Below are positions 1,363 through 61,694 of a DNA stretch of 64,000 nt, one piece after another. The stretch comes from Siphonodentalium dalli (Eukaryota; Mollusca; Scaphopoda; Gadilida; Siphonodentaliidae). The stretch is taken from assembly GCA_032622095.1 (NCBI GenBank), contig CP136068.1, positions 3,077,314 through 3,141,313 of the forward strand, in the 5' to 3' direction. How positions within the stretch are numbered: the stretch's first letter is position 1; the number at the start of each line of letters is the position of its first letter. The notes under the pieces are model-generated. The model worked only from the letters and a program-made list of their open reading frames with translations. It did not search any database and had not been told where the DNA came from. The position numbers were made by a program, and so were the translations under genes.

Positions 1363-1526
1363 CTTGTTGTATGGACTGTACCTAGCCACTTTCTGTAAAT
1401 GCTCCGAAAGATGTTTGAACGTCTCAAAGTTATGTTCAGGAAGTTCATGGATGAGCCTCTTTAATTTCAGCTTTCTTGTGTCCGGCCGCTCAACCCGATT
1501 AGCGTTAATAAAGCACTGGTACAGAT
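1363..1526 (-). CDS. ARHGAP21/23-like: Exon 12: RhoGAP domain, middle helices
   Basis: A 164-nt exon. The acceptor is ACTCGTTACAG (AG 1527-1528) and the donor AAG-GTATGT from 1362. It reads LYQCFINANRVERPDTRK, then LKRLIHELPEHNFETFKH and LSEHLQKVARYSPYNK. This matches the vertebrate FIEANR...LKRLIHDLPEHHYETLKFL block. The following exon, with the N-L-A-x-x-F-G-P catalytic-support motif, must be below position 1. The first 66 bases with the acceptor are the seed of the 88-bp array that fills the next 8.8 kb upstream in the transcript. Confidence 0.94.
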
Positions 1527-10500: not shown

Positions 10501-13500
10501 CTTGCAGGCGACTTGAGAGCCAGGGGCCGGCCTAGAGGGGAACTTGTCGAAACAGATCGACCCAGAGTCAAATTTCCTTCGTGCTTTGAGAACAATTCGG
10601 CACTAAAAACTGATTGACAGAATGGAGAATTAGAGGGGTAGCTTTATTGACAGAATGGTGAATTAGAGCGATAGCTTTATTGACAGAATGGTGAATTAGA
10701 GCGATAGCTTTATTGACAGAACGGAGAATTAGAGCTGTAGCTTTGTTGACGATTTCCGCATGCTACTCAGCTAAATGGGAACCCTGATGTTTGCCGTCTA
10801 GCCTAGAGGGGGACAGGGACCAGCGTAGAGGGCGACTTGAAAGATAGGGACCAGCCTACAGGGCGACATCTTTTCCATAAAATGAGCCACTTCTACCTAT
10901 TTTTCTCTTAGGGAGAGGTAACTTCTCTCTTATATACCAGTATGCATATTTAAAAAAAAAACAGCATATTGGAAGTATATTTACTGATTAGGCCAAAAAA
11001 AAAAAGGGTTTTGATTCTCGGGCATAGCCGCGTCTGGAAAAAAGGCCTGCGTTGACCCTTTTTATTACGATTTTCAAATTTGACCACGCTGTCAAATGAT
11101 AACACGAAAATAGGAAACTAGAAAACAGAAATTAGTTATGTTTCAAACACCGAATATGATAGACATACAATGATATATGTGTTGGTATTCAAAAACAGAC
11201 ACTAGGTAACGATAACTACCAGGTATATTGTCACCACAAGGTGCCCAAACCCCAAGTTTATTGAGACAAATGTGTTCAAATATTTCGGTATTTTATCAAT
11301 TCGAAAAGGTAAACGCTAAACGGGAAACTATTCTGAGATTTACAATTTCGGGAACGCAAACCGGAAAGAAATATGGTGCGTATTGGCGATGTGTATGCTG
11401 GTTTAATCATCGATCTACACAATATACGTCGATGGTTTATTATTTGAAGTTGTTATGGCTGGCATGTATTGAGGTACATAATACTTATTCAGATACGGCA
11501 GAATAAGTCATTCTAGACTTTCTATGAAGATCACTATATATATCTTATTGTTTGTATTCAATTTCTGTATTTTTATTTGAGTAATTGAACCGGATATTTA
11601 GCTCTGTTTGTTGTTATTAAACATGCTTGTTACGAACAATATTAGAAACGCAAATATTATCTTCCCATTAAATGTGACAACAGGTGATAGAACGTTAGTA
11701 GACTGGTCCATCTACAACGTTGAGAACGATCTTATTATGGTCATTCTTTATAGTGGAATAATTAGTTCATAAAATTATATCAAAACAATGTTCACCTTAC
11801 ATTTTCTTAACCTGGGAAAGTATAACCCATGCTTTAAACTATGGGCATTATCCCCAAAACGAAAATAAAAAATAAAAATAAAACCCTCGCTCCCTCATCG
11901 ATTCTCCAAAAAAATTACCCGAGAATCAAAACACTTTTTTTCTTTGGCCTTATAATGGTATTATAAATGGGCTCTTGTATTGCATAAAACTTATTGGATG
12001 ATTGAAAGTAAATTGAACTTCAGCCTTTATGATTTCTCCATGATAACCGTCCCATTTCTCCCTAATAATCTAATGGGGTGAAGTGATTTCTCCATGATAA
12101 CCGTCCCATTTCTCCCTAATAATCTAATGGGGAGAAGAGACCACTAACCAGAACTAATTGAGAAATCTTACCTTCTGGTATAAGAGGTTCTTACCTTCTG
12201 GTATAAGAGGTTCTTACCTTCTGGTATAAGAGGTTCTTACCTTCTGGTATAAGAGGTTCTTACCTTCTGGTATAAGAGGTTCTTACCTTCTGGTATAAGA
12301 GGTTCTTACCTTCTGGTATAAGAGGTTCTGGCAGTTTTCTAAAGAACGCCTTCAGTAAACTGCTGATGACGTTAACATCAAACCATTTCTCGTTATCAGT
12401 ATCCAAGTGTTCCAGGCCCTGAAAAGCGAGATAAACAAAGAGAGGTAACTCTAAATAAAGAAAAGTTTATCTCAGGGATGTCGCCAATCATAAGGTGTAA
12501 ATTCCCGAAGTACTAGAAAACAATTGGACATCGCATCGCCATGACGATTATATGTCTTTAAACTAGATCAGTACATCGCATCGCCATGACGATTATATGT
12601 CTTTAAACGATATCAGTACATCGCATCGCCATGACGAATATATGTCTTTAAACGAGATCAGTTCATAACATCGCCATGACGATTATATGTCTTTAAACGA
12701 TATCAGTACATCACATCGCCATGACGATTATATGTCTTTAAACGATATCAGTACATCGCATCGCCATGACGATTATATGTCTTTAAACCAGATCAGTGCA
12801 TCGCCATGACGATTATATGTCTTTAATCGATATCAGTACATCACATCGCCATGACGATTATATGTCTTTAAACGATATCAGTACATCGCATCGCCATGAC
12901 GATTATATGTCTTTAAACCATATCAGTACATCGCATCGCCATGACGATTATATGTCTTTAAACGATATCAGTACATCGCATCGCCATGACGATTATATGT
13001 CTTTAAACGAGATCAGTTCATAACATCGCCATCACGATTATATGTCTTTAAACGATATCAGTACATCACATCGCCATGACGATTATATGTCTTTAAACCA
13101 GATCAGTACATCACATCGCCATGACGATTATATGTCTTTAAACGAGATCAGTACATCACATCGCCATGACGATTATATGTCTTTAAACTATATCAGTACA
13201 TCACATCGCCATGACGATTATATGTCTTTAAACGATATCAGTACATCACATCGACATGACGATTATATGTCTTTAAACGAGATCAGTACATCACATCGCC
13301 ATGACGATTATATGTCTTTAAACGATATCAGTACATCACATCGCCATGACGATTATATGTCTTTAAACGATATCAGTACATCACATCGCCATGACGATTA
13401 TATGTCTTTAAACGATATCAGTACATCACATCACCATGACGATTATATGTCTTTAAACCAGATAAGTACATAACATCGCCATTTAGATTATATGTCTTTA

Positions 13501-16500
13501 AACGATATCAGTACATCACATCGCCATGACGATTATATGTCTTTAAACCAGATCAGTACATCACATCGCCATTTAGATTATATGTCTTTAAACCAGATCA
13601 GTACATCACATCGCCATTTAGATTATATGTCTTTAAACCAGATAAGTACAAGCCTGAGTTTAGTGTGCCTGTCATGTGCAGAATGAGGTCCCCAGAGGGT
13701 GAATTTAGTGACGCTGTCCCACACAAGATTAATTTCCAGTCAAAATCGCTGATTCGAAGTTCAATAATTTACGGATGGGATATTTTTAATTTTTTTTATT
13801 ATATCTTTTCCATCTCTCCAGAGAATATTGCTACTATAGTTCAGTCAAAACTGAAGTATGGTTTAAGAAATGGATGTTGATAGGCTTGTGTTCCATAGAA
13901 AATGGATGCAAGTTGGTCAGGGTTCGTGCTGCCACTTGCCAATGGCAAAAATAATTCACATTTGGCAAAAAATATTTTCATTTGGCAAAAGTTTTGGCAA
14001 GTCACTTTTTAATTCCTCAATAATGAAAATATCAGTCAATGCCATTCATTTTAGGAAATTATTACAATGGAATTATATTAGTGGTGTTTAAAATGGTTTT
14101 GGAAAAGTTAACACCTCCATTAAGATGCAGTTAATATGGTAACATTATTATCGATGGGTGGAGGGATTACCAATATTGAGTGTGATGGTGGTGCTAATCC
14201 TCTTGTTTTTTTGTTAGTTTTTTTGTATATGCTTTATTCTCTGATCCAAGATATAATATATGGACATTGAGAAAACAAAAATGTAGTTATTTACAAAAGA
14301 TAGACAGCAAAAAATAAAGAAAGACATCACATATACCGGTATACAATATATACATCAACCCCCGGTTTCTTGCATTCAAGCAAATAATAATAACTTTCCT
14401 ATCGATAACAAACGTCGTTCAAGCCGTGAGTATCGAAACATAAAACTCAATCAAGATTGCAGAAAATGATACTCTCAGGGATGACATTTGGCAAATTCTA
14501 ATAGAATTTGGCAAAAAATATTTTCATTTGGCAAAAGTAAATTTCGGTCCAGCGCGGACCCTGAAGTTGGTCTGACATTTTGTGTGGAAAGCGAAAAGCA
14601 TTCCACAAATAAAAATTGCAGACCAATTTGCATCCATACTCCATGGAACCATCAAAATCAACATCTATTACTTATATTTACACTCAACAAAGTCTTCTGG
14701 CAGATTAAACTAGCATTAAATGCCCATTTACAATGTTATTCTCGTAGCTCATTGCAAGTTGCATCTACACCAAAATGGAAGCAAGTAGGGGTGTAGTGTG
14801 ACGTCACATGGCATAATTCCAACCAACCAACGTCCTGTATTCATGTTCCACAGCGCGTGTGAGTGTAAATATATTGATGTGCACACCTTTCTGAGTTCCT
14901 CTTGCATCATGGAGATTGCAGCTGAGTTACCAGGGACTCGGTAAACACCCGTCACTTCTAATCCTTTAGCCTCTACAATCCTCGTACACATGTCAACAAT
15001 CAACGGAAGAAACTGTAATGGAACAAGAGGACGTTAGGAAGTTGCAAAATACACCATAAAATACACCCGTGGTCATTCAAAATACACCCGTGGTCATTCC
15101 AACAAAATTTGCGGCGGAAACCAAATTTGAACGTGACCTGTATATTGAGCTAGTAAGCTCACATACCAAATTTCATTCCATTCAGTACGGACTTCCTTAA
15201 GTTATCATCCGGAAAAGAAAAAAAACGAATGTACAGAATGAAGGACGTACAGATGGACCATTAACATAATATGTCCCGTTTAAAAAACAACAGATATATA
15301 TAGAGAGCGACGACTGTTCATGGACTAGATATGGATGGTATTGACGGATACTCACTTAGTTCTTAGGTGAGGGGATAGTCTTCTAGAGACAGTCCGAAAG
15401 TTGAGGTAGGTGTTGATAAGTGGTGACTAGGTACAGATGTTGTCTACATATACTAAGGGATGGTGGGGGAGACTAGTTATGGAAACTATCGACGGATACT
15501 CACTTCATTGTTAGGGGAGGGGATACAGTCCTCTAGAGACAGTCCGAAAGCTGAGGTAGGTGTTGATAAGTGATGACTAGGTACTGATGCTGTCGACGGA
15601 TGCTTCTTGAAGATTCCTTTAATGCTCTTCAATCTGCTCAGATCAGCATCTGAATATAAATGATTTAATTCGTGAATTTGAGAAAAAACACAAATAAATA
15701 TAGTGGATAAAACAAGTGCAACGGCGAAATGTGAGGCGATTTAATTCGTGAGTTGGAACACATGGCGAAATGTGAGGCGATATAATTCATGAGTTTGAGC
15801 AAAAAATACAAATAAATTATAGTGGATAAAATAAGTGCAACGGCGAAATGTGAGGTGCTTTAATTCTTGAGTTTGAAAACACCCAAAAATAAATATAATG
15901 GATAAAACAAGTGCAGATTAATGCTGCACCTGTCATGAAAGGGTTAATGATAAACCACATGTTAAACTTTGACTGCTGAGCCTATCAGTGTAGTTTCCAG
16001 TAATTATTTGGGGACACCTGTTTATATGCCAGAGTCGTATCCGAAGGCCGCAGCCCTAAGTTGGGGAGGGTATGGGGTGGCCTCCCCCCTTGAACTACAT
16101 GTACATACTGCCATAAAATGAAAATTTATTGCTTTATTTGATGATTTAGTGTTAGTTGTGTTTGTTTTCTAGTAATAATGGTCAAAAAAACAATTATCTG
16201 AGGAATTTTTCTTCTTTCTAACTGTTTTTTGGGCGCCTGGAGTTTGGGCGCCCATACCTGTTACAGGTACCAAATCTGGCCTGGAAATTACCCTGGAGCC
16301 TATAGCAAACAATATATTGAATTTAAAATACTTCATAAGCTACATTTTTTTCATTGGGAACAGTTTTCTTTCGTAAGGGGGGGGGGGGGGGGGGGGGGGG
16401 GTGGGGGCTACGAATAGCCTTGAATTTCATCGATATTTACACTCGCTGAAGTCGTAATTGCTTCCAATCCTGTCATCAATCGATAAAAAAAGTGCAATGG

Positions 16501-40237: not shown

Positions 40238-40276
<39 letters not shown>

Positions 40277-58200: not shown

Positions 58201-61200
58201 ATGATATCCATATTTGTATGGTTCTATTGAGACAGACCGGAGATATTTTAGGCTGTTGAAGCTTTATTTGGCCGGTTTTGGCCGTTTTGTTGGGTAAAGG
58301 GTTAATAGAGAATTCGAGAGACGTACATCCGATATATGATTTTCGTCGGCATTTCAAAGAGACCGCTCGTTCCAATACTTACATTTCGGAGCATTAACCG
58401 CAGTTAAGTAAGAGGTTTTTCTGATTGGCTTGACCGTCCTCTTATCGTCAGTTAAAGTGCCATCAACACACTCCTTCGCCTCGGGCATCTCCTGCGATAT
58501 CGGACTAGGTCCCGAAGGACTAGAACGACGATCGTCCCTAAACATTGGCACAATTTGCAAAATTGGTGTCGATGAAGAATCAGAATTATTTTGAGACACA
58601 AAAATCGTGATTGGAGCTTGCGAGTTTGGGTAAGCAGCACTTACAGGTGTACTCGTTTGGTTACTCTGGTTTTGCGGGAACGATTTAGTCATTAGTTCCG
58701 TTGATAACCTTCGAACTTTAGTTTGCGGTTGTGGTGGTGGAGAGGTGAGGGGCAGTTCAGGTTGATTAGGAGGCGATTCTGATGATCGCTTCTCATACCG
58801 AGCCGTCCTATCAGCGACAGTTTCAAATTTTTTGAAAGAAGTCATTTTTTCGATTTCGACTTTAAACCTGCTGTTTGGTGGGTTAACAACAGTTGTAGTT
58901 GGCACAACAACGGGAGGTTTAATATCTGTAGCACTTTCGAATTGTTTTAGCCGATGAGACACTAGCGGTCGAGTATTCTTCTGTACCTGAAAAGTCGTTG
59001 ATGACGTCACAATTGGCGAACGTTGTGTCAGCGCAAAAGCAGTTCCATAATTAGGAACTGCGTTCAACTGAGGCGTTGACTGAATTGTTGAGCCGGTTGA
59101 GCGCCGGTCTCCTATTTGAACAACAACCTGCGATCCTGAACGTGGAAATGACGATCGAACATTAATATTATCCATACTTGAAGATACTTTACCCGGTTTC
59201 GTACTCGGACACTGAGAAACGACTGGTATATAATGCCTATGTGGGGTCATGTTTTCGTCATCCTTTTTCAACGGAGAATTTAACATAGAAGAATACGCCT
59301 GACTTTGCGACGGCGTCATGTGAAGCCCAGAGGGCACGAGAACCCGTGGCGACTGGTCCGGAAAGCTGTGACGATTATGAGCCGTCCACGAATAACAATA
59401 CTGATTATTATCGGGCGTGTCCGCTGCAGCACCCTGCTGTGTTTTAAACCTATCGACTGAAGTCTGCGCGCGCATGTTGAGCAGGCTGGAAGAACTTGAC
59501 GTCGGTGTGTTGGCCGGAGCTATGTTCTCCTTAAGTAACTTCCCCATACTCTTTGATTGTGGCATCGTATCTTTTGCCTCCTGTCTCGAACTACCGACGG
59601 GAAAATAAAGCCCGAATGAATACGATGTCGATTTAGGAAGAGTTGGGTTCGACCCCACATTCTCCTGTGAAGTTGAACTATCGAATGGTTTCTTATAACT
59701 CATTTCCGAAAAATTCCCATAATTCTTATCGGAATATAATGGTTCTCTTTGAAGATTAACTCCTGACGTGAACGAAGTTGACTTAGTTACACCTTTATCG
59801 TAGTCTGGCGTCGAGTGGCGCCATCTGTTAGCACAATCCTGAGATCTCTGTGACTGTTCCACAGATGCAGCGGAACCGTATAAGTTACGGGAGTTTGAAG
59901 CGGAGTCCCGTGAGTAGGATTGTGGGATATTGTCTGGACTTTCAGCAGCCTGCCCTAACTGAGATGTGAAAGCAGTGTTTGGGTAGGCCTGTAAATACAG
60001 GAAAGCATTAATGATAACTGAGATGTGAAGGCAGTGTTTGGGTAGGCCTGTCAATACAGGAAAGCAGTGCCATTAGATTATAGAGGAATTGTGAATGCAG
60101 TGTTAGGGTATGCTTGTAAACAAGCCTGCAAATAGTGTGTCTGTCATTTGCAGAAGGGGGTCCCCAGAGGGTGAATTTAGTGATGCTATCCCGAACAGCA
60201 GGCTACCATCACCCAATTCACCCTCTATTAAGGCCTCATCTTGTGGGAAGTATCTATAGCCTCAAATTAACATTGATTTTAGTTACTTTTTCCCTTCTAT
60301 TCACTTTCTATATCCCATAATTATCAGAAAATAAAATGCATAATCGAGGTGACTAATGGGTGAACATCATCAACTTCAACTGGTGAACTTCAATCTCATC
60401 CTAGGTCTCCCACAGCATTTGAGGTCTAAGCAGAATGAGGTTCACAGAGGGTGAATTTGGTGATGCTAGCCTGCTTAGCAGATAGCGGCATTAAATTCAC
60501 CCTCTGGGGGACCTCATTCTGCAAATGACAGACACACTATTTGCAGGCTAGCTTGTAAAAAAAATGAAGTATTGGATAGCTGGGTTCACGCTGTTGGTGG
60601 CTAATGGCTAGATTTTTTAATTTTGTATTTATCAACCTATATGGATCCCAACACTTAAACATTCCATGACAGGAGTTACCTCCCTTATTAACCCTTCCAT
60701 GACAGGAGTTACCTCCCTTATTAACCCTTCCATGACTGGAGTTACCTCCCTTATTAACCCTTCCATGATGGAGTTACTGCCCTTATTAACCTTTCCATGA
60801 CTGGAGTGACCTCCCTTATTAACCCTTCCATGACTGGAGTTACCTCCCTCATTAACCCATCCATGACTGGAGTTACCTCCCTTAATTCATGCCATGACTG
60901 GAGTTACCTCCCTTAATAACCCTTCCATGACTGGAGTTACCTCCCTTAATAACCCTTCCATGACTGGAGTTACCTCCCTTAATAACCCTTCCATGACTGG
61001 AGTTACCTCCCTTATTAACCCTCCCATGACTGGAGTTACCTCCCTTATTAACCCTCCCATGACTGGAGTTACCTCCCTTATTAACCCTTCCATGACTGGA
61101 GTTACCTCCTTATTAACCCTTCCATGACTGGAGTTACCTCCCTTATTAACCCTCCCATGACTGGAGTTACCTCCCTTATTAACCCTCCCATGACTGGAGT

Positions 61201-61694
61201 TACCTCCCTTATTAACCCTTCCATGACTGGAGTTACCTCCCTTATTAACCCTTCCATGACCTCCCTTATTAACCCTTCCATGACTGGAGTTACCTCCCTT
61301 ATTAACTCTTCCATGATTGGAGCTACCTGAAATTTTGTGATCCTAGCATAGATAAGAGAATACATTGACCTAACAATATTTACCTTGACCTTGTAAGCTA
61401 GTGCATTCTCTTATATATGCAAGGCTCCCTATGGGAGACTTGTATATGTAAAGAGAATGCACTGGCACAGGATCTTTAATGATGCACCAGCGCTGCTCCC
61501 GTCATGAAAAAACAAAAGCTAGCAATTACCACGTTAATTAGAAAGATTACATGCCCCTTTAAGATAGTTTGTGACTTACCTCCCTTATTAACCCTTCCAT
61601 GACTGGAGTTACCTCCCTTTAAGTTAGTTTGTGACTTACCATTTGCAGAATGTCCTCATCTCTGGGAACGACAACAAGTTTCAATGTAGAACCG
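1363..61694 (-). CDS. ARHGAP21/23-like: ARHGAP21/23-like Rho GTPase-activating protein, partial (12 internal exons)
   Basis: The protein stimulates GTP hydrolysis on Rho-family GTPases; vertebrate ARHGAP21/23 act at Golgi, junction and cortical membranes through PDZ and PH domains. Exons in transcript order: 61640-61694, 58383-59988, 48687-48878, 43728-43856, 40695-40851, 25709-25918, 24216-24413, 16895-17093, 15504-15649, 14887-15012, 12310-12418, 1363-1526. Every junction is GT-AG and every phase pairs. The sum is 3291 nt; removing two extra G bases in 25709-25918 leaves one leading base plus 1096 whole codons. Diagnostic segments are VPRDEDILQM (PDZ end), RRTSYLMA, KEGQLHCK and SWKPMWCVLRG (PH), LPLIVDMCTRIVEAKG, TGVYRVPGNSAAIS (arginine finger) and VISSLLKAFFRKLPEPL (RhoGAP). 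The PDZ-disordered-PH-GAP order matches ARHGAP21/23 rather than other RhoGAPs. The N-terminus and the GAP end with its conserved Asn lie outside. I found no promoter or polyA site. Family assignment is sure; orthology to 21 versus 23 cannot be resolved and is probably a single pre-duplication gene. Confidence 0.93.
1461..10357. repeat. 88-bp minisatellite, about 101 units, built from the exon 12 acceptor
   Basis: The period is exactly 88 bp: acceptors sit at 1527-1528 and every 88 bp up to 10327-10328, with one +1 (near 4300) and one -1 (near 10287) indel. Read on the minus strand, each unit is about 20 nt of intron end (CTCGTTACAG) followed by the first 66 nt of the RhoGAP exon at 1363-1526, then the join to the next unit. 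Units are almost identical; the commonest variant is ATCTATACC versus ATCTGTACC just after the acceptor. Variants such as AAGGCTTT cluster at the 9.3-10.3 kb end. Only the unit nearest 1526 continues into the complete exon. The array is tandem, not CRISPR: it has no spacers. Confidence 0.97.
10353..10870. repeat. Degenerate ~34-bp and 39-bp minisatellites
   Basis: About seven diverged units of a GGCGACTTGGGAGACAGGGA motif lie at 10353-10545 and two more at 10795-10868. Four units of a 39-bp repeat (TTGACAGAATGGTGAATTAG) lie between, at 10612-10745. Confidence 0.8.
10991..11949. mobile_element. Harbinger-type non-autonomous element, 959 bp
   Basis: The ends are inverted: GGCCAAAAAAAAAAAGGGTT on the left and a matching reverse complement on the right, both continuing into TTTTGATTCTCGGG. 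Both sides are flanked by TTA, the usual PIF/Harbinger target duplication. The 92-codon open frame at 11228-11506 inside it is not recognised as a transposase. A shorter relative lies at 54159-54469. Confidence 0.6.
12033..12131. repeat. 48-bp direct repeat, 2 copies
   Basis: Two copies of a unit containing TTTCTCCATGATAACCGTCC, just inside the intron after exon 11. Confidence 0.85.
12168..12330. repeat. 23-bp tandem array of exon 11 donor, 7 copies
   Basis: On the minus strand each unit reads AACCTCTTATACCAGAAG then GTAAG, i.e. the last coding bases of exon 11 plus its 5' splice site. Seven GTAAGA donors result, at 12309, 12286, 12263, 12240, 12217, 12194 and 12171. The unit is not a multiple of three: one or two extra units shift the frame, and reading into the third meets TAA. 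Confidence 0.95.
12310..12418 (-). CDS. ARHGAP21/23-like: Exon 11: RhoGAP domain, LLKxFFRKLPEPL helix
   Basis: A 109-nt exon. The acceptor is CGCTTTTCAG (AG 12419-12420) and the donor GTAAGAACC from 12309. It reads GLEHLDTDNEKWFDVNVISS, then LLKAFFRKLPEPLIPE. The K-x-F-F-R-K-L-P-E-P-L block contacts the Rho switch regions and is the most conserved part of RhoGAP domains. It ends in phase 1 and pairs with AT of exon 12 to give Asp. The last 18 bases plus the donor are repeated seven times on the intron side; only the first donor keeps the frame. Confidence 0.93.
12528..13650. repeat. 45-bp minisatellite, about 25 units
   Basis: The unit contains CGCCATGACGATTATATGTC and is 45 bp, so it is open as a 15-residue repeat (HRHDDYMSLNDISTS) in one plus-strand frame. 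No signal or splice context supports translation. It lies in the intron between exons 10 and 11. Units at the high end carry CCATTTAGA in place of CCATGACGA. Confidence 0.93.
13651..13730. mobile_element. Fragment of AGAATGAGGTCCCC foldback element
   Basis: Carries TGCAGAATGAGGTCCCCAGA and the following stem start of the family seen complete at 32497-32945. Confidence 0.6.
13918..14563. mobile_element. hAT-type non-autonomous element, 646 bp
   Basis: The terminal inverted repeats are CAGGGTTCGTGCTG and, on the other strand, CAGGGTCCGCGCTG. An exact 8-bp target duplication AAGTTGGT lies at 13910-13917 and 14564-14571. Subterminal copies of TTTGGCAAAAAATATTTTCA occur at both ends. No transposase is present. 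Confidence 0.88.
14887..15012 (-). CDS. ARHGAP21/23-like: Exon 10: RhoGAP domain, arginine-finger segment
   Basis: A 126-nt exon, 42 codons, phase 0-0. The acceptor is TTCCATTACAG and the donor AAG-GTGTGC at 14886. It reads FLPLIVDMCTRIVEAKGLEV, then TGVYRVPGNSAAIS and MMQEELRK. The Arg in Y-R-V-P-G is the catalytic arginine finger that enters the GTPase active site, so the domain keeps its key residue. The sequence is near-identical to vertebrate ARHGAP21/23 at this point and distinct from other RhoGAP families, which read [LF]R-x-S[AG] here. The donor is GTGTGC, weaker than the others. No edge duplication is seen. Confidence 0.95.
15110..15262. repeat. Dispersed repeat with ACATACCAAATTTC motif
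   Basis: Resembles the middle part of the repeats at 36735-37125 and 62900-63110 (cell-independent motif CACATACCAAATTTCATTCC). Probably a SINE-like or RTE-derived 3' part; no ends are defined. Confidence 0.4.
15320..15616. repeat. 148-bp tandem duplication over the exon 9 donor
   Basis: The segment covering the last third of exon 9, its GTGAGTATC donor and intron start occurs twice. The copy at about 15322-15448 is diverged, keeps the donor (GT at 15354-15355), lacks an acceptor and acquires a stop. Confidence 0.88.
15504..15649 (-). CDS. ARHGAP21/23-like: Exon 9: linker leading into RhoGAP domain
   Basis: A 146-nt exon. The acceptor is TTATATTCAG (AG 15650-15651) and the donor GTGAGTATC from 15503. 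It reads ADLSRLKSIKGIFKKHPST, then TSAFGLSLEDCIPSPNNE. The [TA]FG[VL]-x-L-[ED]DC motif is the conserved lead-in to the RhoGAP fold in this family. It ends in phase 0 and joins exon 10 as ...NNE-FLPLIVDM. Its last third and donor are present again 148 bp downstream in the transcript direction as a degraded copy. Confidence 0.88.
15655..15925. repeat. ~75-bp degenerate tandem repeat, about 4 units
   Basis: Units share AGTGCAACGGCGAAATGTGA and GTGGATAAAACAAGTGCAAC. One more fragment lies at 16485-16512. The array starts right outside the exon 9 acceptor. Confidence 0.75.
16290..16376. repeat. Diverged copy of the exon 8 donor region
   Basis: Matches 16850-16925: both hold TGGGAACAGTTTTCTTTCGT and the flanking intron CAATATATTNAATTT. 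The splice GT is retained as GTAGC but the exon edge is altered. The copy runs straight into the G tract. Confidence 0.85.
16377..16401 (+). repeat. Poly-G tract (25 G)
   Basis: Twenty-five G, one T, then five more G. It may form a quadruplex and is a likely place for base-count error. Confidence 0.95.
16690..16806. mobile_element. Partial hairpin element with TGATGCAGC-type end
   Basis: Holds one copy of the palindrome GTGCATTCTCTTATATATG...and its complement with a GAGTCTCC loop, the form used by the CTTCCATGACTGGAG family. Confidence 0.6.
16895..17093 (-). CDS. ARHGAP21/23-like: Exon 8: PH-to-GAP linker
   Basis: A 199-nt exon. The acceptor is AATATTTTCAG (AG 17094-17095) and the donor AAG-GTAGCG from 16894. 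It reads DKGVASADLILRKSSLYDQG, then TSHKVKKGPLPSLS and HSPSIRRKKTVPNEK. The GV-x-x-x-DLI start matches the family segment just after the PH helix; the rest is a basic, Ser/Pro-rich linker. It starts in phase 0 and ends in phase 1, fitting exon 9. The donor is a weak match after +3. Both edges have diverged tandem copies (16300-16376 and 17098-17156). Confidence 0.85.
17098..17156. repeat. Duplicate of the exon 8 acceptor
   Basis: The 49-bp segment with AATATTTTCAG and the first 24 bases of exon 8 is repeated directly upstream in the transcript. The second copy is interrupted at its TTAA by a TTAA-type element. Confidence 0.9.
17158..17390. mobile_element. TTAA element, CCCTTTGAGTGCCAG family
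   Basis: Inverted ends CCCTTTGAGTGCCAG, with TTAA on both sides. It carries one 70-bp palindrome. Removing it restores TATTATTAACGAATAAG, the sequence of the neighbouring repeat, so it inserted after the array formed. Confidence 0.9.
17391..17572. repeat. 32-bp array continuing the exon 8 acceptor repeat
   Basis: About six units of GAATAAGGCCGAATAATAAA plus TATTATTAAC. The unit resembles the intron side of the exon 8 acceptor repeat (TATTATTAACGAATAAGGTC) and is probably a degenerate continuation of it. Confidence 0.8.
18033..19260 (+). pseudogene. LINE ORF1: Zn-finger / nucleic-acid-binding protein, frameshifted
   Basis: ATG at 18033. The N-terminus PGCEDCGTGTKVKF...CTPCERKRF has a C-x2-C...C-x2-C zinc-binding pattern. 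A helical segment (DISSVKTQIKDMRSVISADV) follows, which could form a coiled coil. The C-terminus PPGLIFVSRLAPGTAEKEV...DTYSSFKLEV...WPKNTLVRPFF is typical of the RNA-binding ORF1 of many invertebrate LINEs. The first frame stops at 18363; one extra base near 18358-18367 would join it to the second (DKTVNNLRDM...). The product would bind element RNA in a retrotransposition particle. Confidence 0.8.
19326..22130 (+). pseudogene. LINE ORF2: AP endonuclease and reverse transcriptase, frameshifted
   Basis: ATG at 19326. The endonuclease keeps SYNCKSV, LLQEHWLL, VYLPTDE, VVLGDFNA, SWLDHC and SDHFPL. The RT keeps KSAGPDDITAEH, NYRPVALSCVISK, FLDASKAFDRVNHEMLL, then GGILSPYLFNVYI and CYADDM (catalytic YADD). 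The tail continues as SYKYLGHILNN and RKFYKCSPNVKMYLFK. It shifts frame near 19826, 21346, 21525, 21650 and 21722, each best explained by one extra base. Without the shifts it would be a nearly full-length enzyme that nicks target DNA and copies element RNA. Confidence 0.85.
22202..22589. other. Intron sequence, nothing recognised
   Basis: AT-rich sequence between the LINE tail and the donor-derived array. Confidence 0.6.
22590..24233. repeat. 37/38-bp array seeded by the exon 7 donor, about 43 units
   Basis: On the minus strand each unit reads AACAATCCTGATCTCTAT then GTATGTATCAAACACC: the last codons of exon 7 plus its 5' splice site. Unit variants differ at GTTCCTAGATGTTGATACAC (37 bp), GTTCCTAGGTGTTTGATACA and GTTGCTAGGTGTTTGATACA (38 bp). 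They recur in A-B-C order over about 113 bp, for example 23000-23460 and 23940-24180, so there is higher-order structure. Confidence 0.93.
24216..24413 (-). CDS. ARHGAP21/23-like: Exon 7: second half of PH domain
   Basis: A 198-nt exon, 66 codons, phase 0-0. The acceptor is CTGTTTCAG (AG 24414-24415) and the donor GTATGTATC from 24215. It reads SLDDQPISIKSCIVDIAY, then KKKHVFRLIT, FLFQADDQDTMISWIQAIQR and NNNPDLD. The D-x-x-x-M-x-x-W-I-x-x-I-Q pattern is the C-terminal PH helix with its invariant Trp. It lines up block for block with the vertebrate ARHGAP21/23 PH domain. The acceptor edge is tripled at 24381-24530 and the donor edge is the seed of about 43 repeats at 22590-24233, so both ends of this exon are amplified. 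The exact donor is slightly uncertain because the repeats offer alternatives. Confidence 0.9.
24381..24530. repeat. Triplicated exon 7 acceptor (~60-bp units)
   Basis: Three copies of TTTCAG plus the first coding bases of exon 7 (GATGATCAGCCTATATCAAT on the minus strand) and 12-15 bases of intron. Only the copy at 24413 continues into the full exon. Confidence 0.92.
24823..25216. mobile_element. TTAA element, CCCTTTACCCAACA family (copy 1)
   Basis: Full-length, about 394 bp. Inverted ends CCCTTTAYCCAACA, right TTAA at 25217-25220, left site CTAA. It has two 70-bp palindromes in opposite loop orientation (24975-25042 and 25121-25190), separated by AT-rich sequence, and one arm holds TGGTTACAGTTATGCCCTGT. 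TTAA targets and CCC ends suggest piggyBac-type mobilisation; no transposase is present. Confidence 0.9.
25221..25700. other. Intron sequence, nothing recognised
   Basis: Three overlapping short plus-strand open frames show no family resemblance. Confidence 0.55.
25709..25918 (-). CDS. ARHGAP21/23-like: Exon 6: start of PH domain, with two +1 frameshifts
   Basis: A 210-nt exon. The acceptor is TTTTCTGTTCAG (AG 25919-25920) and the donor GTGAGT from 25708. The first frame gives LRESLRQQRNIMIK, then EITKEGQLHCKTAITDGKR. The next frame gives SWKPMWCVLRG and the third HALYLFKDRKDTTS. Together they are the first strands of the PH domain in correct family order. Each shift is one extra base and each sits at a GGG (CCC on the plus strand at 25797-25799 and 25752-25754). 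Removing one G from each restores a continuous frame and makes the exon end in phase 0, as exon 7 needs. If both are real, translation would stop in exon 7. Sequencing error is likelier than decay. The acceptor edge is repeated eight times upstream. Confidence 0.88.
25909..27110. repeat. ~155-bp array seeded by the exon 6 acceptor, 8 units
   Basis: Each minus-strand unit holds TTTTCTGTTCAG, the first 40 bases of exon 6 (ACTCCGAGAATCATTGAGGC to ATGATC) and a foldback hairpin of the CCCATAGAGAGCCCC family. Acceptor copies lie near 25919, 26073, 26228, 26387, 26541, 26693, 26851 and 27006. Some units have AACAAAAAAAAAG in place of AACAGAAAAG, which removes the CTGTTCAG acceptor. Confidence 0.93.
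27240..27745. repeat. ~108-bp tandem repeat, about 4 units
   Basis: Units share GTTAACATACCGCACTACCA and TTATATGACGTCCAACAGCA. Confidence 0.85.
27907..28143. mobile_element. TTAA element, CCCTTTGAGTGCCAG family
   Basis: Complete, about 237 bp, with flanking TTAA, one palindrome at 27952-28022, and an internal pair GGGCCGATGAGATCG. Confidence 0.9.
28386..32115. mobile_element. Hairpin element split by a tandem-core element
   Basis: A left palindrome at 28394-28465 and a right one at 32038-32107 with CCTGTGCC and GGTACAGGG outer parts look like halves of one element opened by the 3.3-kb insertion at 28621-31883. Confidence 0.5.
28621..31883. mobile_element. ~160-bp tandem-core element (pearl/BIV160-like), about 20 units
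   Basis: Short inverted ends TAGCTCAACTTA (28623-28634) and TAAGTTGAGCTA (31870-31881). The core is about 20 units near 160 bp, with CCAAGATGGCTGCTGGCGGC and TCGTTCCCATCTACATGTCA in each. It closes with an (ACGGACAC)n tract at 31800-31835. Tandem core, flanking arms and an ACGG-type microsatellite are the layout of bivalve pearl elements. Units alternate between a TTTAGTCATGCAAAGAGT and an ATTGAATTTTGAAATCC form, with larger duplications inside (compare 30018-30500 with 30820-31300). Confidence 0.6.
32142..32280. mobile_element. CAGTAATGCCCT foldback element
   Basis: A near-perfect palindrome with ends CAATAATGCCCTAAATAAT and the complement, and stem GATTTAGTCGGAAATATGGC. See 49901-50113 for the longest copy. 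Confidence 0.85.
32497..32945. mobile_element. AGAATGAGGTCCCC foldback element, complete
   Basis: Outer inverted repeats GCCTGCAAATAGCGTGTCTG; inside are two separate stem-loops, each AGAATGAGGTCCCCAGAGGG with its complement, around a core with GGTGATGTTCACCC. About 449 bp. Confidence 0.85.
32990..33230. repeat. Two diverged ~160-bp core units
   Basis: GATGGCTGCCGGCGGCCATG and AAGGATTTAGTCATACAAAG relate these to the array at 28621-31883. Confidence 0.75.
33320..33545. repeat. ~62-bp tandem repeat, 3.5 units
   Basis: Units share ATACTGGCATGGCGAGGTGG and TGTATCTCCCCTGTAAATA. Confidence 0.9.
33572..33945. mobile_element. ~375-bp dispersed element (AAAGACATATTATGGAC family)
   Basis: One of five copies (others 41756-42134, 42583-42960 inverted, 47866-48025 inverted and partial, 63505-64000). 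It starts AAAGACATATTATGGACTTG and ends TGTTTTCACATCACTTTAA. Coding capacity is absent; class unknown. Confidence 0.8.
33983..34565. mobile_element. TTAA element, CCCTTTGAGTGCCAG family, interrupted
   Basis: Ends match the family with TTAA flanks. Its body is opened at GTCTGTTAA by the element at 34095-34476; intact relatives read GTCTGTTAAAGAATATAAG. Confidence 0.88.
34095..34476. mobile_element. TTAA element, CCCTTTACCCAACA family (copy 2)
   Basis: 382 bp with TTAA on both sides and two palindromes (34232-34303, 34381-34452). The empty site is visible in related copies, which proves transposition at TTAA. Confidence 0.93.
34660..34735. mobile_element. GAGCAGACGACACTC hairpin fragment
   Basis: Short member of the CCCATAGAGAGCCCC hairpin family (GAGCAGACGACACTC and GTGGGGCTCCCTGT). 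Confidence 0.6.
34998..35105. mobile_element. Truncated CCCTTTACCCAACA element
   Basis: Left end and first palindrome (35024-35094) only; it shares the TTAA at 34994-34997 with the neighbour. Confidence 0.8.
35106..36734. other. Intron sequence, mostly unique
   Basis: No repeat family, exon or coding signal is recognised in 1.6 kb. The minus-strand open frame at 36296-36526 resembles nothing. A C10 run occurs at about 35563. Confidence 0.55.
36735..37125. repeat. Dispersed repeat with (GACA)n tract
   Basis: Two diverged internal copies of AATCGAACTCGATCTGTATT and AAATTTGGTTCCAATCAGAT, then GGACAGACAGACGGACAGAC and CATACTATGGTATGGGTAAA. Probably a SINE-like or Helitron-like short element. 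Confidence 0.5.
37176..39757. mobile_element. 2582-bp TA-target inverted-repeat element
   Basis: Imperfect ends CAGC...TGCTC...TAAGCGACCTGTTTAACGAGG and complement (37176-37211, 39721-39757). TA is duplicated at 37174-37175 and 39758-39759. Removing it rebuilds GCATTCTCTTATATATGCG, the stem of a TTAA-family palindrome. Both subterminal regions (to about 37440 and from about 39450) are packed with ACCGCGGTA-type motifs, possibly transposase-binding sites. The 2-kb interior has no recognised transposase; the largest open frame (38925-39176) is unknown. Confidence 0.85.
39758..39934. mobile_element. Right half of interrupted CCCTTTACCCAACA element
   Basis: Second palindrome remainder and right end TTGGGTAAAGGG with TTAA. 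The left part is at about 37126-37175. Confidence 0.85.
40110..40235. repeat. 62-bp direct repeat, 2 copies
   Basis: Both contain CATAACCCCTTGTGGCATAC and TATAACATATGCAGGGC; the second runs into the C tract. Confidence 0.9.
40239..40274 (+). repeat. Poly-C tract (36 C)
   Basis: Thirty-six C in a row; the true length is probably variable. Confidence 0.95.
40275..40690. other. Intron sequence, nothing recognised
   Basis: No repeat or exon is recognised downstream of exon 5. Confidence 0.55.
40695..40851 (-). CDS. ARHGAP21/23-like: Exon 5: linker with RRTSYLMA motif
   Basis: A 157-nt exon. The acceptor is AAATTTCAG at 40852 and the donor GTGAGTTG from 40694. It reads SPEDETVKLHRRTSYLMA and continues with a TSKERQNTPGQSPKF stretch, ending at TQDSLQ. 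The R-R-[ST]-S-Y-L pattern with ERQ/ERS behind it is a recognisable ARHGAP21/23 block (vertebrate RRSSYLLA...ERS). It ends phase 2 and pairs with the single leading base of exon 6. A longer open frame in another register overlaps this exon and is not coding. Confidence 0.88.
41059..41472. mobile_element. TTAA element, CCCTTTGAGTGCCAG family, with insert
   Basis: TTAA flanks, palindrome at 41095-41167, and about 170 bp of extra sequence (AATCTTACGTTTTTCATGGG to the A-rich tract at 41370-41402). The same insert occurs at 44175-44300. Confidence 0.85.
41756..42134. mobile_element. AAAGACATATTATGGAC dispersed element
   Basis: Full-length copy, same orientation as 33572-33945, moderately diverged. 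Confidence 0.8.
42155..42375. repeat. ~65-bp degenerate tandem repeat, 3 units
   Basis: Units share TTCACTGCTAATGCCATTAT and GTGCTGGGTCAATGAC. Confidence 0.8.
42583..42960. mobile_element. AAAGACATATTATGGAC element, inverted
   Basis: Reverse-oriented copy; forms a large inverted pair with 41756-42134. Confidence 0.8.
43099..43348. mobile_element. CAGTAATGCCCT foldback element with extra stem
   Basis: Ends CAGTAATGCCCTAAGTAAT; the inner GCTTTCCGATGAATGGCAAC stem is present three times, one more than normal. Confidence 0.85.
43395..43640. mobile_element. AGAATGAGGTCCCC foldback element, compact
   Basis: Two stem-loops in tandem with only a short linker; the central core found in other copies is missing. 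Confidence 0.8.
43728..43856 (-). CDS. ARHGAP21/23-like: Exon 4: linker with conserved acidic/proline segment
   Basis: A 129-nt exon, symmetric phase 1-1, so it could be skipped without changing frame. The acceptor is TATTTTTATTTCAG (AG 43857-43858) and the donor GTGAGTG from 43727. It encodes RFDSPEKTIDEIPLSN, then DDGPRPIMSP and a basic end MRTKPM. It resembles the segment in vertebrate homologues just before the RRSSYL motif. It has no catalytic role. Its edges are not duplicated. Confidence 0.78.
43908..44358. repeat. 43-bp direct repeat, each copy beside a different TTAA element
   Basis: AGGACAACAGTTAATGATCA through CATTAGCTTCC at 43909-43951 recurs at 44316-44358. The first is followed by a CCCTTTCAGTGCCAG element (from 43956, right end missing), the second by a CCCTTTACCCAACA element. 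Confidence 0.9.
44363..44808. mobile_element. TTAA element, CCCTTTACCCAACA family
   Basis: TTAA flanks. It has an expanded middle (three A-rich subrepeats) and a second palindrome with a deleted loop (44600-44660). Confidence 0.88.
45075..45225. mobile_element. CAGTAATGCCCT foldback element, degraded
   Basis: Contains TTAACCACAGCGGAATTATG and GGATTTAGTCGG; the right arm is mostly lost. Confidence 0.7.
45295..45537. mobile_element. TTAA element, CCCTTTGAGTGCCAG family
   Basis: Complete, TTAA flanks, palindrome 45343-45412. Confidence 0.9.
45892..46756. mobile_element. hAT-type element, 865 bp
   Basis: Ends CAGGGTTCCTGC and complement with a 5-bp TCATG duplication on each side. Many internal AAGGC/CAAGG motifs lie near the ends (TTCAAGGCTTTTCAAGGCCC). 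It holds a transposase first-exon remnant. Confidence 0.85.
46135..46369 (-). pseudogene. BED-type zinc finger of hAT transposase, frameshifted
   Basis: ATG at 46369. It reads CTFQDCWLTSESYKDWLMIV, then AKCKVCLKTFSEANMGKS; after one extra base it continues ALDSHVKSDKHLKVL. The C-x2-C...H-x5-H ligands fit a BED finger, the DNA-binding N-terminus of hAT transposases. The catalytic domain is missing, so it cannot transpose alone. Confidence 0.75.
46776..46855. mobile_element. CCCATAGAGAGCCCC-type hairpin
   Basis: Stem GGAGCCCCTCACAT... with GAGCAGACGACACTC loop. Related copies: 34660-34735, 52215-52305, 55322-55395 and two tandem arrays. Confidence 0.7.
46968..47135. mobile_element. CAGTAATGCCCT foldback element
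   Basis: Near-perfect 168-bp palindrome. Confidence 0.87.
47283..47674. mobile_element. TTAA element, CCCTTTACCCAACA family
   Basis: Complete, TTAA at 47279-47282 and 47675-47678; palindromes at 47435 and 47577. Confidence 0.92.
47866..48025. mobile_element. AAAGACATATTATGGAC element, inverted and partial
   Basis: Carries GAGCGTAGTTCAGACGATGT and TGATCAGTTTCACGCATCCG in reverse. Confidence 0.75.
48059..48442. mobile_element. TTAA element, CCCTTTACCCAACA family
   Basis: Complete, TTAA flanks, palindromes at 48084 and 48222. It ends only 240 bp from exon 3. Confidence 0.92.
48687..48878 (-). CDS. ARHGAP21/23-like: Exon 3: Ser-rich linker
   Basis: A 192-nt exon. The acceptor TTCGTTCTAG has a short tract, and the donor is AG-GTTTGC at 48686. 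Phases fit exons 2 and 4 (two leading bases, one trailing). It encodes a linker beginning TQPLLPSVFEHTSQEP, rich in Ser, Tyr and His, with an acidic SESDE patch and ending QITRQLRRS. There is no recognised domain. The open frame, splice sites and phase agreement are the evidence; the family is poorly conserved here. No tandem duplication is visible at either edge. Confidence 0.75.
48929..49122. mobile_element. CAGTAATGCCCT foldback element
   Basis: Starts just 50 bp upstream of the exon 3 acceptor; a strong hairpin so close could affect splicing. Confidence 0.85.
49256..49620. mobile_element. TTAA element, CCCTTTACCCAACA family
   Basis: Complete, short middle. The right TTAA (49621-49624) is shared with the next element. 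Confidence 0.92.
49625..49875. mobile_element. TTAA element, CTTCCATGACTGGAG family
   Basis: Starts TGATGGGAGC at a TTAA and ends CCAGTCATGGAAGAG-TTAA; two diverged palindromes. Confidence 0.8.
49901..50113. mobile_element. CAGTAATGCCCT foldback element, longest copy
   Basis: About 213 bp, almost fully self-complementary, with GAAAGCTCTCGGGGAGAGCTTTC at the centre split as GAAAGCTCTCGG and GGAGAGCTTTC. TA flanks suit a Tc1/mariner-type element. Confidence 0.87.
50114..50571. other. Intron sequence, nothing recognised
   Basis: AT-rich, no repeats noted. Confidence 0.6.
50572..50807. mobile_element. TTAA element, CTTCCATGACTGGAG family, right end lost
   Basis: TTAA plus CTCTTCCATGACTGGAG, two palindromes with AGCCTCC-type loops, and an ending GCTCCCATCATGAAATG without TTAA. 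Confidence 0.75.
50960..51784. mobile_element. 825-bp foldback element with TA target
   Basis: Inverted arms of about 343 bp (50960-51302 and 51442-51784), very similar, with a 139-bp spacer. Ends CCGCTATTCTCAAAGTAATT; TA at 50958-50959 and 51785-51786. Arms are full of ACCGCGGTA-type motifs like those in the element at 37176-39757, suggesting one transposase group. Confidence 0.9.
51795..52137. mobile_element. AGAATGAGGTCCCC foldback element
   Basis: Complete but diverged; outer GTGTGTCTGACATTTG and complement. Confidence 0.8.
52215..52305. mobile_element. CCCATAGAGAGCCCC hairpin, complete
   Basis: Same hairpin as in the exon 6 array, with GTTAGTATAAACCCATAGAG on the left. It shows the hairpin exists independently of that array. 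Confidence 0.8.
52717..53541. repeat. 33-bp minisatellite, about 25 units
   Basis: Units of GATATCGGTTGGGTTGATGC plus TGTAACAGCTTGG. Eleven codons per unit keep one frame open on each strand for the whole array, without ATG. Sporadic GGATGGG units recur at 4-8 unit intervals. Confidence 0.95.
53542..54158. other. Intron sequence, nothing recognised
   Basis: Short open frames on both strands without family resemblance. Confidence 0.55.
54159..54469. mobile_element. Harbinger-type MITE, 311 bp
   Basis: Ends GGCAAAAGAAAAAAATA and complement of GGCCAAAGAAAAAATAG, flanked by TTA. Relative of 10991-11949. Confidence 0.6.
54628..54730. mobile_element. AGAATGAGGTCCCC stem-loop, half element
   Basis: One stem-loop only, followed by a degraded core to about 54830. 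Confidence 0.7.
55080..55317. mobile_element. TTAA element, CTTCCATGACTGGAG family
   Basis: TTAA flanks, begins GCTTTGATGATGGGAGC, ends CCAGTCATGGAAGAG. The second palindrome is shortened. Confidence 0.8.
55322..55395. mobile_element. CCCATAGAGAGCCCC-type hairpin, short
   Basis: GGAGCCCCTCACAGATGG with its complement; directly abuts the preceding TTAA element. Confidence 0.65.
55396..56164. other. Intron sequence, nothing recognised
   Basis: AT-rich, no exon or repeat noted. Confidence 0.55.
56165..56560. mobile_element. AGAATGAGGTCCCC foldback element
   Basis: Two stem-loops and the usual core; the left loop is partly deleted. Confidence 0.78.
56592..57393. repeat. 140-bp array containing a foldback hairpin, 6 units
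   Basis: Unit starts at 56592, 56732, 56872, 57012, 57152 and 57292. Each holds CTCATGACTGTTTTACAGGT, the CCCATAGAGAGCCTC hairpin, and CCAGGCATATATATCCTATA. Open frames of 96-146 codons through it are repeat artefacts: the unit is 2 modulo 3, yet all frames happen to lack stops. Confidence 0.95.
57400..57909. other. Intron sequence, nothing recognised
   Basis: No repeat or exon noted. Confidence 0.55.
57910..58301. mobile_element. TTAA element, CCCTTTACCCAACA family
   Basis: Complete, TTAA flanks. It lies 80 bp inside the intron after exon 2. Confidence 0.93.
58383..59988 (-). CDS. ARHGAP21/23-like: Exon 2: large Ser/Pro-rich disordered region between PDZ and PH
   Basis: A 1606-nt exon encoding about 535 residues. 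The acceptor is TTTACAG at 59989-59995 and the donor is GTAAGTATT from 58382. The true reading starts AYPNTAF; the longer upstream open frame with an ATG at 60054 is only a read-through of a duplicated acceptor. Composition is Ser, Pro, Asn, Gln and Thr rich with no membrane segment or globular motif. Features include a Pro patch (LPLTSPPPQPQT) and, at the end, a basic RKTSYL motif that recurs as RRTSYL in exon 5. This matches the long unstructured stretch carried on a very large exon in ARHGAP21/23 genes. It ends phase 1. Codon use is unbiased and there is no internal frameshift. Confidence 0.9.
59957..60124. repeat. 59-bp tandem duplication of the exon 2 acceptor
   Basis: The first bases of exon 2 plus CTGTATTTACAG are repeated 59 bp upstream (CTGTATTGACAG) and, more diverged, near 60090-60124. 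Use of the distal acceptor would shift the frame and meet a stop within 31 codons. Confidence 0.92.
60122..60552. mobile_element. AGAATGAGGTCCCC foldback element
   Basis: Complete; outer GCCTGCAAATAGTGTGTCTG and complement. It abuts the third acceptor copy of exon 2. Confidence 0.82.
60660..61330. repeat. ~34-bp array of a TTAA-element terminus, about 19 units
   Basis: Units of CCTTCCATGACTGGAGTTAC plus CTCCCTTATTAAC. The unit equals the left end of the CTTCCATGACTGGAG element plus an insert, and the last unit leads into such an element at 61306. On the minus strand every unit carries GGGAGGTAACTCC, a donor-like sequence. Confidence 0.93.
61306..61510. mobile_element. TTAA element, CTTCCATGACTGGAG family, partial
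   Basis: Left end and palindrome from about 61405; the right end GCTCCCGTCATGAAA lacks TTAA. Confidence 0.7.
61558..61640. repeat. Duplicated exon 1 donor flank
   Basis: GATAGTTTGTGACTTACC (61567-61584) repeats the donor region TTAGTTTGTGACTTACC at 61624-61640, with two units of the 34-bp motif between them. The copy keeps GGTAAGTC. Confidence 0.85.
61640..61694 (-). CDS. ARHGAP21/23-like: Exon 1 of window: C-terminal edge of PDZ domain
   Basis: A 55-nt exon with a good polypyrimidine tract and CAG acceptor (AG at 61695-61696) and donor GTAAGTC at 61639. One base completes a codon from the previous exon, then 18 codons read GSTLKLVVVPRDEDILQM. This is the last beta strand of the PDZ domain and the conserved P-K/R-DEDIL tail seen in ARHGAP21/23. 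It ends in phase 0 and joins the next exon as ...LQM-AYPNTAF, which parallels the vertebrate LQ-LAYS junction. Earlier PDZ exons must lie beyond position 64000. The exon is too short for ORF finding; phase and family match support it. Confidence 0.85.

Follow-up and report, generated by a model that had tools for sequence, protein, structure and literature searches.

Tandem repeats that straddle exon-intron boundaries are widespread in the genome of Siphonodentalium dalli, and one ARHGAP21-like gene is extreme in the degree of this phenomenon, not in its kind. These arrays are probably mirage minisatellites, the products of recurrent and tolerated local duplications with some excess at exon edges, the ARHGAP21-like gene being at the extreme of the range. 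A stretch of around 20-150 bp that reaches from the edge of an exon into the flanking intron would be duplicated in tandem; the exon-proximal copy would retain the true splice site and still work, and the remaining copies would become intron, so that the event would be close to neutral. The array would then grow or shrink by unequal exchange or slippage. The anatomy of the arrays, their occurrence in other genes and the copy-number differences between related copies are direct observations, as is the lack of clear constraint on the extra copies; the use of the exon-proximal copy in splicing and the way in which duplication proceeds we infer from the DNA.

As far as a literature search shows, the frequency of such arrays across one large genome, a gene this extreme and a measured, moderate excess at donors are new. 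With arrays at around 7% of the sampled junctions and at 36% of those in one gene, it becomes countable whether duplication prefers exon edges and why donors are favoured and, more generally, where and how small duplications arise and survive in the S. dalli genome. The arrays also offer natural tests of how the spliceosome selects a single site where as many as 101 near-identical acceptors are present, and of how introns grow or are gained through tandem duplication.

The ARHGAP21-like gene

The window, i.e. the whole stretch of 64,000 nucleotides that was analysed, corresponds to C8:3077314-3141313 (CP136068.1) of a genome of 2.23 Gb in 9 contigs. Judging by its domains (PDZ, PH and RhoGAP), much of an ARHGAP21-like gene lies on its minus strand. 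The joined exons 10-13 match RhoGAP with an E value of 4e-48 (Pfam), bearing out the first-pass annotation of a RhoGAP gene; PH and PDZ domains were also found (Pfam), and among solved structures the PH2 and PDZ exons score best against domains of ARHGAP21 (2dhj, 2yuy). Of the twelve exons annotated at first, 11 were placed in the window; the twelfth was not found there, and for this reason the original exon numbers 3-5 have no unambiguous one-to-one counterparts.

All placed exons of the window are on the minus strand. They are exon 1 of the window, at the end of the PDZ region (61640..61694); the large exon 2, which forms one long open frame (58383..59988); two exons without a detected junction-spanning repeat (48687..48878 and 40695..40851); the PH1 exon, originally numbered 6 (25709..25918); the PH2 exon, originally numbered 7 (24216..24413); exons 8 (16895..17093) and 9 (15504..15649); exon 10 (14887..15012), at which no junction-spanning repeat was found; exon 11 (12310..12418); and exon 12, which encodes part of the RhoGAP domain (1363..1526). 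Two further exons were placed upstream (L053 and L052) and exon 13 downstream (L050), making 28 junctions in total; this count stops at exon 13, and later exons are hinted at in L050.

Within the PH1 exon (25709-25918, minus strand) the reading frame shifts by +1 twice, around 45 bp apart, near three-G runs at around 25799 and 25755; these shifts reflect either remaining sequencing errors or damage to the gene. One intron harbors a LINE-like element (19275-21375, plus strand) with endonuclease (PF03372) and reverse transcriptase (PF00078) matches in separate frames.

Arrays crossing the junctions of this gene

Tandem copies comprising the coding edge, the splice dinucleotide and the intron flank cross eight of the 22 junctions in the window and two of the six outside it, i.e. 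10 of the 28 (36%) in the whole mapped gene. Five are acceptors and five are donors, so that 5' and 3' boundaries are affected alike. The acceptor arrays (all coordinates on the minus strand) consist of a 59-bp repeat at exon 2, with two copies and, as seen by eye, a degenerate third further upstream (59956..60066); 153 bp x8 at the PH1 exon (25879..27118); 49 bp x3.2 at the PH2 exon (24375..24533); 48 bp x2 at exon 8 (17063..17158); and 88 bp x101 at exon 12 (1460..10357), where each unit contains around 62-67 coding bases and the rest is intron. All five acceptors originally described as repeated (2, 6, 7, 8 and 12) are thus confirmed.

Among the donors originally listed (1, 7, 8, 9 and 11), three stand: that of the PH2 exon, with around 42 copies of 38 bp (41 extra copies tracked; 22583..24234, minus strand), that of exon 9, with around 150 bp x1.8 (15323..15594, minus strand), and that of exon 11, with 23 bp x7.1 (12166..12329, minus strand). 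At exon 1 the donor and around 25 following bases recur 60 bp downstream with few changes (61553..61641, minus strand), but the repeat carries around one exon base and the coding edge is therefore not copied; at the exon 8 donor no repeat was found. Outside the window, the donors of the PDZ exon (69 bp x2.3) and exon 13 (91 bp x7.5) are crossed, and the other four placed junctions have no crossing repeat. The ungapped detector alone missed two of the arrays, that of the PH1 acceptor and that of the exon 9 donor; TRF covers both. Units of the arrays at 25879-27118 and 56592-57393 both contain, by eye, a similar palindromic, MITE-like stretch.

When the repeat units were compared with one another (nine from this gene and 21 from the control genes below), the sole match between different units was that of a myosin paralog pair. 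The original statement that the unit sequences are unrelated therefore holds among the 30 units compared, and this, together with the presence of such arrays in other genes, supports independent events that share a type of location.

Arrays at the junctions of other genes

Because the window had been chosen for its oddness, we sampled 154 control exons of the RhoGAP, myosin, kinesin, CCT and UCH families from the same genome, with 600-700 bp flanks, and applied TRF plus ungapped self-alignment uniformly. The sample used 29 of the 35 match-list rows for RhoGAP, 16 of 85 for myosin, 39 of 123 for kinesin, 40 of 53 for CCT and 30 of 63 for UCH. Rows were chosen by eye with the sequence unseen, short open frames and one member per set of close paralogs being preferred; of the six omitted RhoGAP rows, three belong to the ARHGAP21-like gene or its second copy and the other three have long open frames. 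Junctions were predicted from the sequence by splice-site score; for L091 and L109 the donor was positioned manually after inspection, and L074 was inspected and left unchanged.

Such arrays are present at 21 of the 308 control junctions (6.8%), including junctions of CCT chaperonin genes. The first 138 exons gave 15/276 and the final 16, chosen after that result, 6/32. TRF alone detected 18 of the 21 arrays, and in these 18 the in-register copies mostly carry the GT or AG of the true site; 15 of the 21 were additionally read by eye. The count leaves aside the acceptor of L086 (where the array ends one base short), L150 and the paralogs L152-L155; it includes L170, which has an array in common with its paralog L043 and was dropped from the shifted-position test described below.

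At 10/28, the ARHGAP21-like gene lies far above the controls (21/308; Fisher P = 4e-5). Under a uniform rate, the binomial probability for a gene of this size is 9e-6, corresponding to around 0.2 genes among 25,000 (this number and equal gene size being assumed); an excess this far above the sampled rate would thus arise only rarely, which argues against a uniform neutral process. Three of 94 control gene groups have two or more arrays, the largest being a CCT gene on C2 (3/14), and clustering of arrays by gene in the controls was judged, by rough arithmetic only, to be near chance.

Several other features of the sampled loci were recorded. In the kinesin exon L086 (C7:209.49 Mb), a 37 bp x9 array occupies positions 1-332 (gene orientation) in the upstream intron; its unit resembles, by eye, the exon's own sequence, and the acceptor has a degenerate array. 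At C4:258.497-258.500 Mb (L074 and L076), the 90-bp unit that crosses a kinesin donor is found again close to the following exon, in an array of its own. RhoGAP matches at C4:269334816-269335253 and C5:117057229-117057621 lie within open frames as long as 471 and 476 aa, respectively, and are perhaps intronless retrocopies, and many similar myosin head exons are clustered at C4:274.2-275.5 Mb. One myosin exon has its highest-scoring structure matches in 2ec6 and 2os8, both from scallop, and vertebrate myosins follow closely.

Are junctions preferred?

A preference for junctions, mainly at donors, has moderate support. The first-pass annotation had proposed that junctions are the preferred location; among the 154 control exons the excess is indeed positive in direction, but its strength depends on the null model and it resides mainly at donors. 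When one unit of each control array was placed uniformly within 200-500 bp of the junction, 14.0 to 9.7 covered junctions were expected versus the 21 seen (P 0.02 to 0.0003); by type, there were 14 donors versus 5-7 expected, and 7 acceptors versus 5-7 expected. Target-size weighting gave ratios of 2.3-2.7 unmasked and of 3.5-4.1 once DNA shared between families was masked.

In the shifted-position test, junctions were compared with intron positions 120-360 bp away, the geometry being identical. Unmasked, 20/306 junctions versus 51/1224 shifted positions were covered (ratio 1.6, CI 0.86-2.7, P 0.058), and acceptors alone showed no excess (7/153 versus 25/612); with dispersed repeats masked, using the small sample at hand, the counts were 19/306 versus 11/656 (ratio 3.8, 95% 1.8-8.9, P 3e-4). 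With an earlier set of offsets, shifted positions gave 7, 8, 17, 13 and 13 of 308 per offset, versus 21 at the junctions. No gradient of arrays toward exons was seen by eye in the distances listed for the control exons.

The units lean into the exon, the mean exonic fraction being 0.63 (P 0.002), with 0.71 for donors and 0.52 for acceptors. Compared with intron arrays, junction arrays have a median identity of 93.5 (n 18) versus 89.5% (n 52; P 0.058) and 3.05 versus 2.2 copies (P 0.055). Junction arrays are thus no older than intron arrays, which speaks against mere longer survival; such survival is not favoured as the cause of the excess.

These results bear on a stronger form of the mirage explanation, not opposed to it, in which exon edges would be genuine hot spots: tandem duplication would strike coding or spliced DNA more often than intron DNA, exon-internal events would mostly be purged, and junction-crossing ones would survive. 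The masked shifted-position ratio, the donor excess, the lean of the units into the exon and the age comparison all point to such hot spots, whereas the unmasked ratio, the absence of an unmasked excess at acceptors alone and the small size of an exon sample picked by eye point the other way; we regard this as a serious contender while leaning slightly against it. We are a shade more hesitant about its quantitative version, that exon edges, above all donors, may be true mutational hot spots at which 20-150 bp tandem duplications are around four times denser than in non-repeat intron DNA, exons as a whole perhaps being the target. If the junction-crossing arrays now visible are what survives of a process aimed at exons, mirages would be a read-out of transcription- or splicing-linked duplication and also a standing supply for new introns.

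Chance placement alone, by which some arrays must land on junctions in a genome rich in tandem arrays, is an unlikely explanation. It would fit the unmasked shifted-position result and also a lax whole-array shuffle of the joined 74 kb of the ARHGAP21-like gene, in which 4.2 covered junctions were expected versus 9 seen (P 0.013). However, when the terminal unit was placed at random in the same 74 kb, only 0.98 were expected versus the 9 of 24 covered (P 1e-6), and in the controls both the masked ratio and the uniform-placement tests argue against chance.

Copy-number change and a further copy on C8

The 3' part of the gene occurs a second time, in the opposite orientation, on C8 near 1.22-1.23 Mb (C8:1222795-1229922 and beyond; L008 and L009). 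This second copy holds exon 12, part of the exon 12 array (at least 64 copies) and exon 13, and begins inside the array, adjoining a block repeated around every 1.4 kb. Aligned pieces of at least 470 bp are 96.7-99.0% identical to the gene, and one 413-bp piece is 87.9% identical. Either recent duplication produced the second copy, or it is a haplotype fragment set in the wrong place. The exon 13 array numbers 7.5 copies in the gene and 10.5 in the second copy, a difference for which haplotype and duplication are both possible sources. Array length also varies between paralogs, three kinesin paralogs having 442, 353 and 444 bp of one shared array, and two UCH paralogs at least 616 and 191 bp of array. 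The mirage of Adh3 is reportedly unstable in somatic tissue.

The start of the second copy within an array, where assemblies tend to fail, and the two frame shifts of the PH1 exon might suggest that the arrays are mis-assembled copies or that a dead gene is gathering repeats. This is very improbable, because like structures occur at the 21 junctions in other conserved genes, including those of CCT chaperonins, exon 2 is one long open frame, exons 10-13 join into a full RhoGAP match, and substitutions distinguish the copies in several arrays.

Constraint on the extra copies

The extra copies behave as if unconstrained, and their splice motifs do not appear to be specially conserved. In the nearest extra copies, 5/128 sites differ in splice motifs, versus 57/1249 in exon parts and 39/666 in intron parts (96/1915 for the rest together; P 0.38). 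Between the farthest extra copies and the working copy, differences number 0/76 at splice sites versus 48/1034 elsewhere (P 0.03), which hints weakly at constraint; when nearest copies are compared with farthest ones, they number 5/76 in splice motifs versus 37/1009 elsewhere. GT or AG is kept in 127/133 extra copies (at most 20 counted per array), as is to be expected since many arrays are homogeneous.

The unit length is divisible by three in 11 of 30 units, i.e. there is no frame bias, and in-frame use of the copies as alternative exons was rejected on this ground. At exon 12, the 101 acceptors are near-identical, and all 80 upstream copies that preserve the exon start exactly reach a stop within 90 codons; upstream acceptors would therefore end the protein, and the exon-proximal acceptor would be the one that gives it.

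The earlier suggestion of selection for splice-site redundancy, e.g. of rows of donors holding U1 snRNP on long introns, thus receives little support and is the least probable reading of all, since the favouring of donors, the retention of GT or AG and the invariant splice motifs of the farthest copies are outweighed by the homogeneity of many arrays, nearest-copy motifs that are no better kept than the rest, the nearest-versus-farthest counts and the absence of frame bias. The mirage explanation is supported by the arrays at control junctions, by unit lengths indifferent to frame and by varying copy number.

Comparison with known systems

A human interferon-gene minisatellite contains donor sites. 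Introners, i.e. introns or repeats made by transposons, were considered and rejected, since one sequence at many sites was not encountered: in 20 of the 21 control arrays, matches to loci of other families, to the window or to its neighbours cover less than half of the array (0 to 0.36), the remaining one (L159) reaching 0.88.

In human segmental duplications, tandem repeats at exon-intron boundaries are described as varying between paralogs; there, new introns and altered splicing in recent paralogs are reported (PMC2812944), whereas the product in S. dalli is likely unchanged. Intron gain by tandem duplication (the Rogers model; internal gene duplication), as cited in PMC3087553, resembles the S. 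dalli case in that a segment containing splice-competent sequence is duplicated locally. In the model as cited, however, a new intron is created in an exon, whereas in S. dalli existing introns are lengthened at their ends.

The closest counterparts are in amphioxus. The first-pass annotation knew of no described system of this kind, but such repeats have already been published as "mirages" in Adh3, the globins BflGb6 and BflGb9, troponin C and PGBD5 (PMC3087553, PMC3902484), lancelet PGBD5 and troponin C being described in like terms (PMC3902484). According to these accounts, amphioxus mirages show haplotype length differences (PMC3087553, PMC3902484), RT-PCR suggested undisturbed splicing, and the globin paper calls the mechanism of origin unclear (PMC3087553). 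A literature search for mirage-like reports in bivalves or molluscs found none by title or abstract start. Common to the amphioxus mirages, as described, and the S. dalli arrays are tandem repeats across 5' and 3' exon-intron boundaries and splice signals in many copies; the amphioxus units, given as around 10 to 160 bp, are similar in size. S. dalli differs in having arrays at many junctions of one gene, with up to 101 copies, in a 2.2 Gb genome, and it adds a rate sampled across genes.
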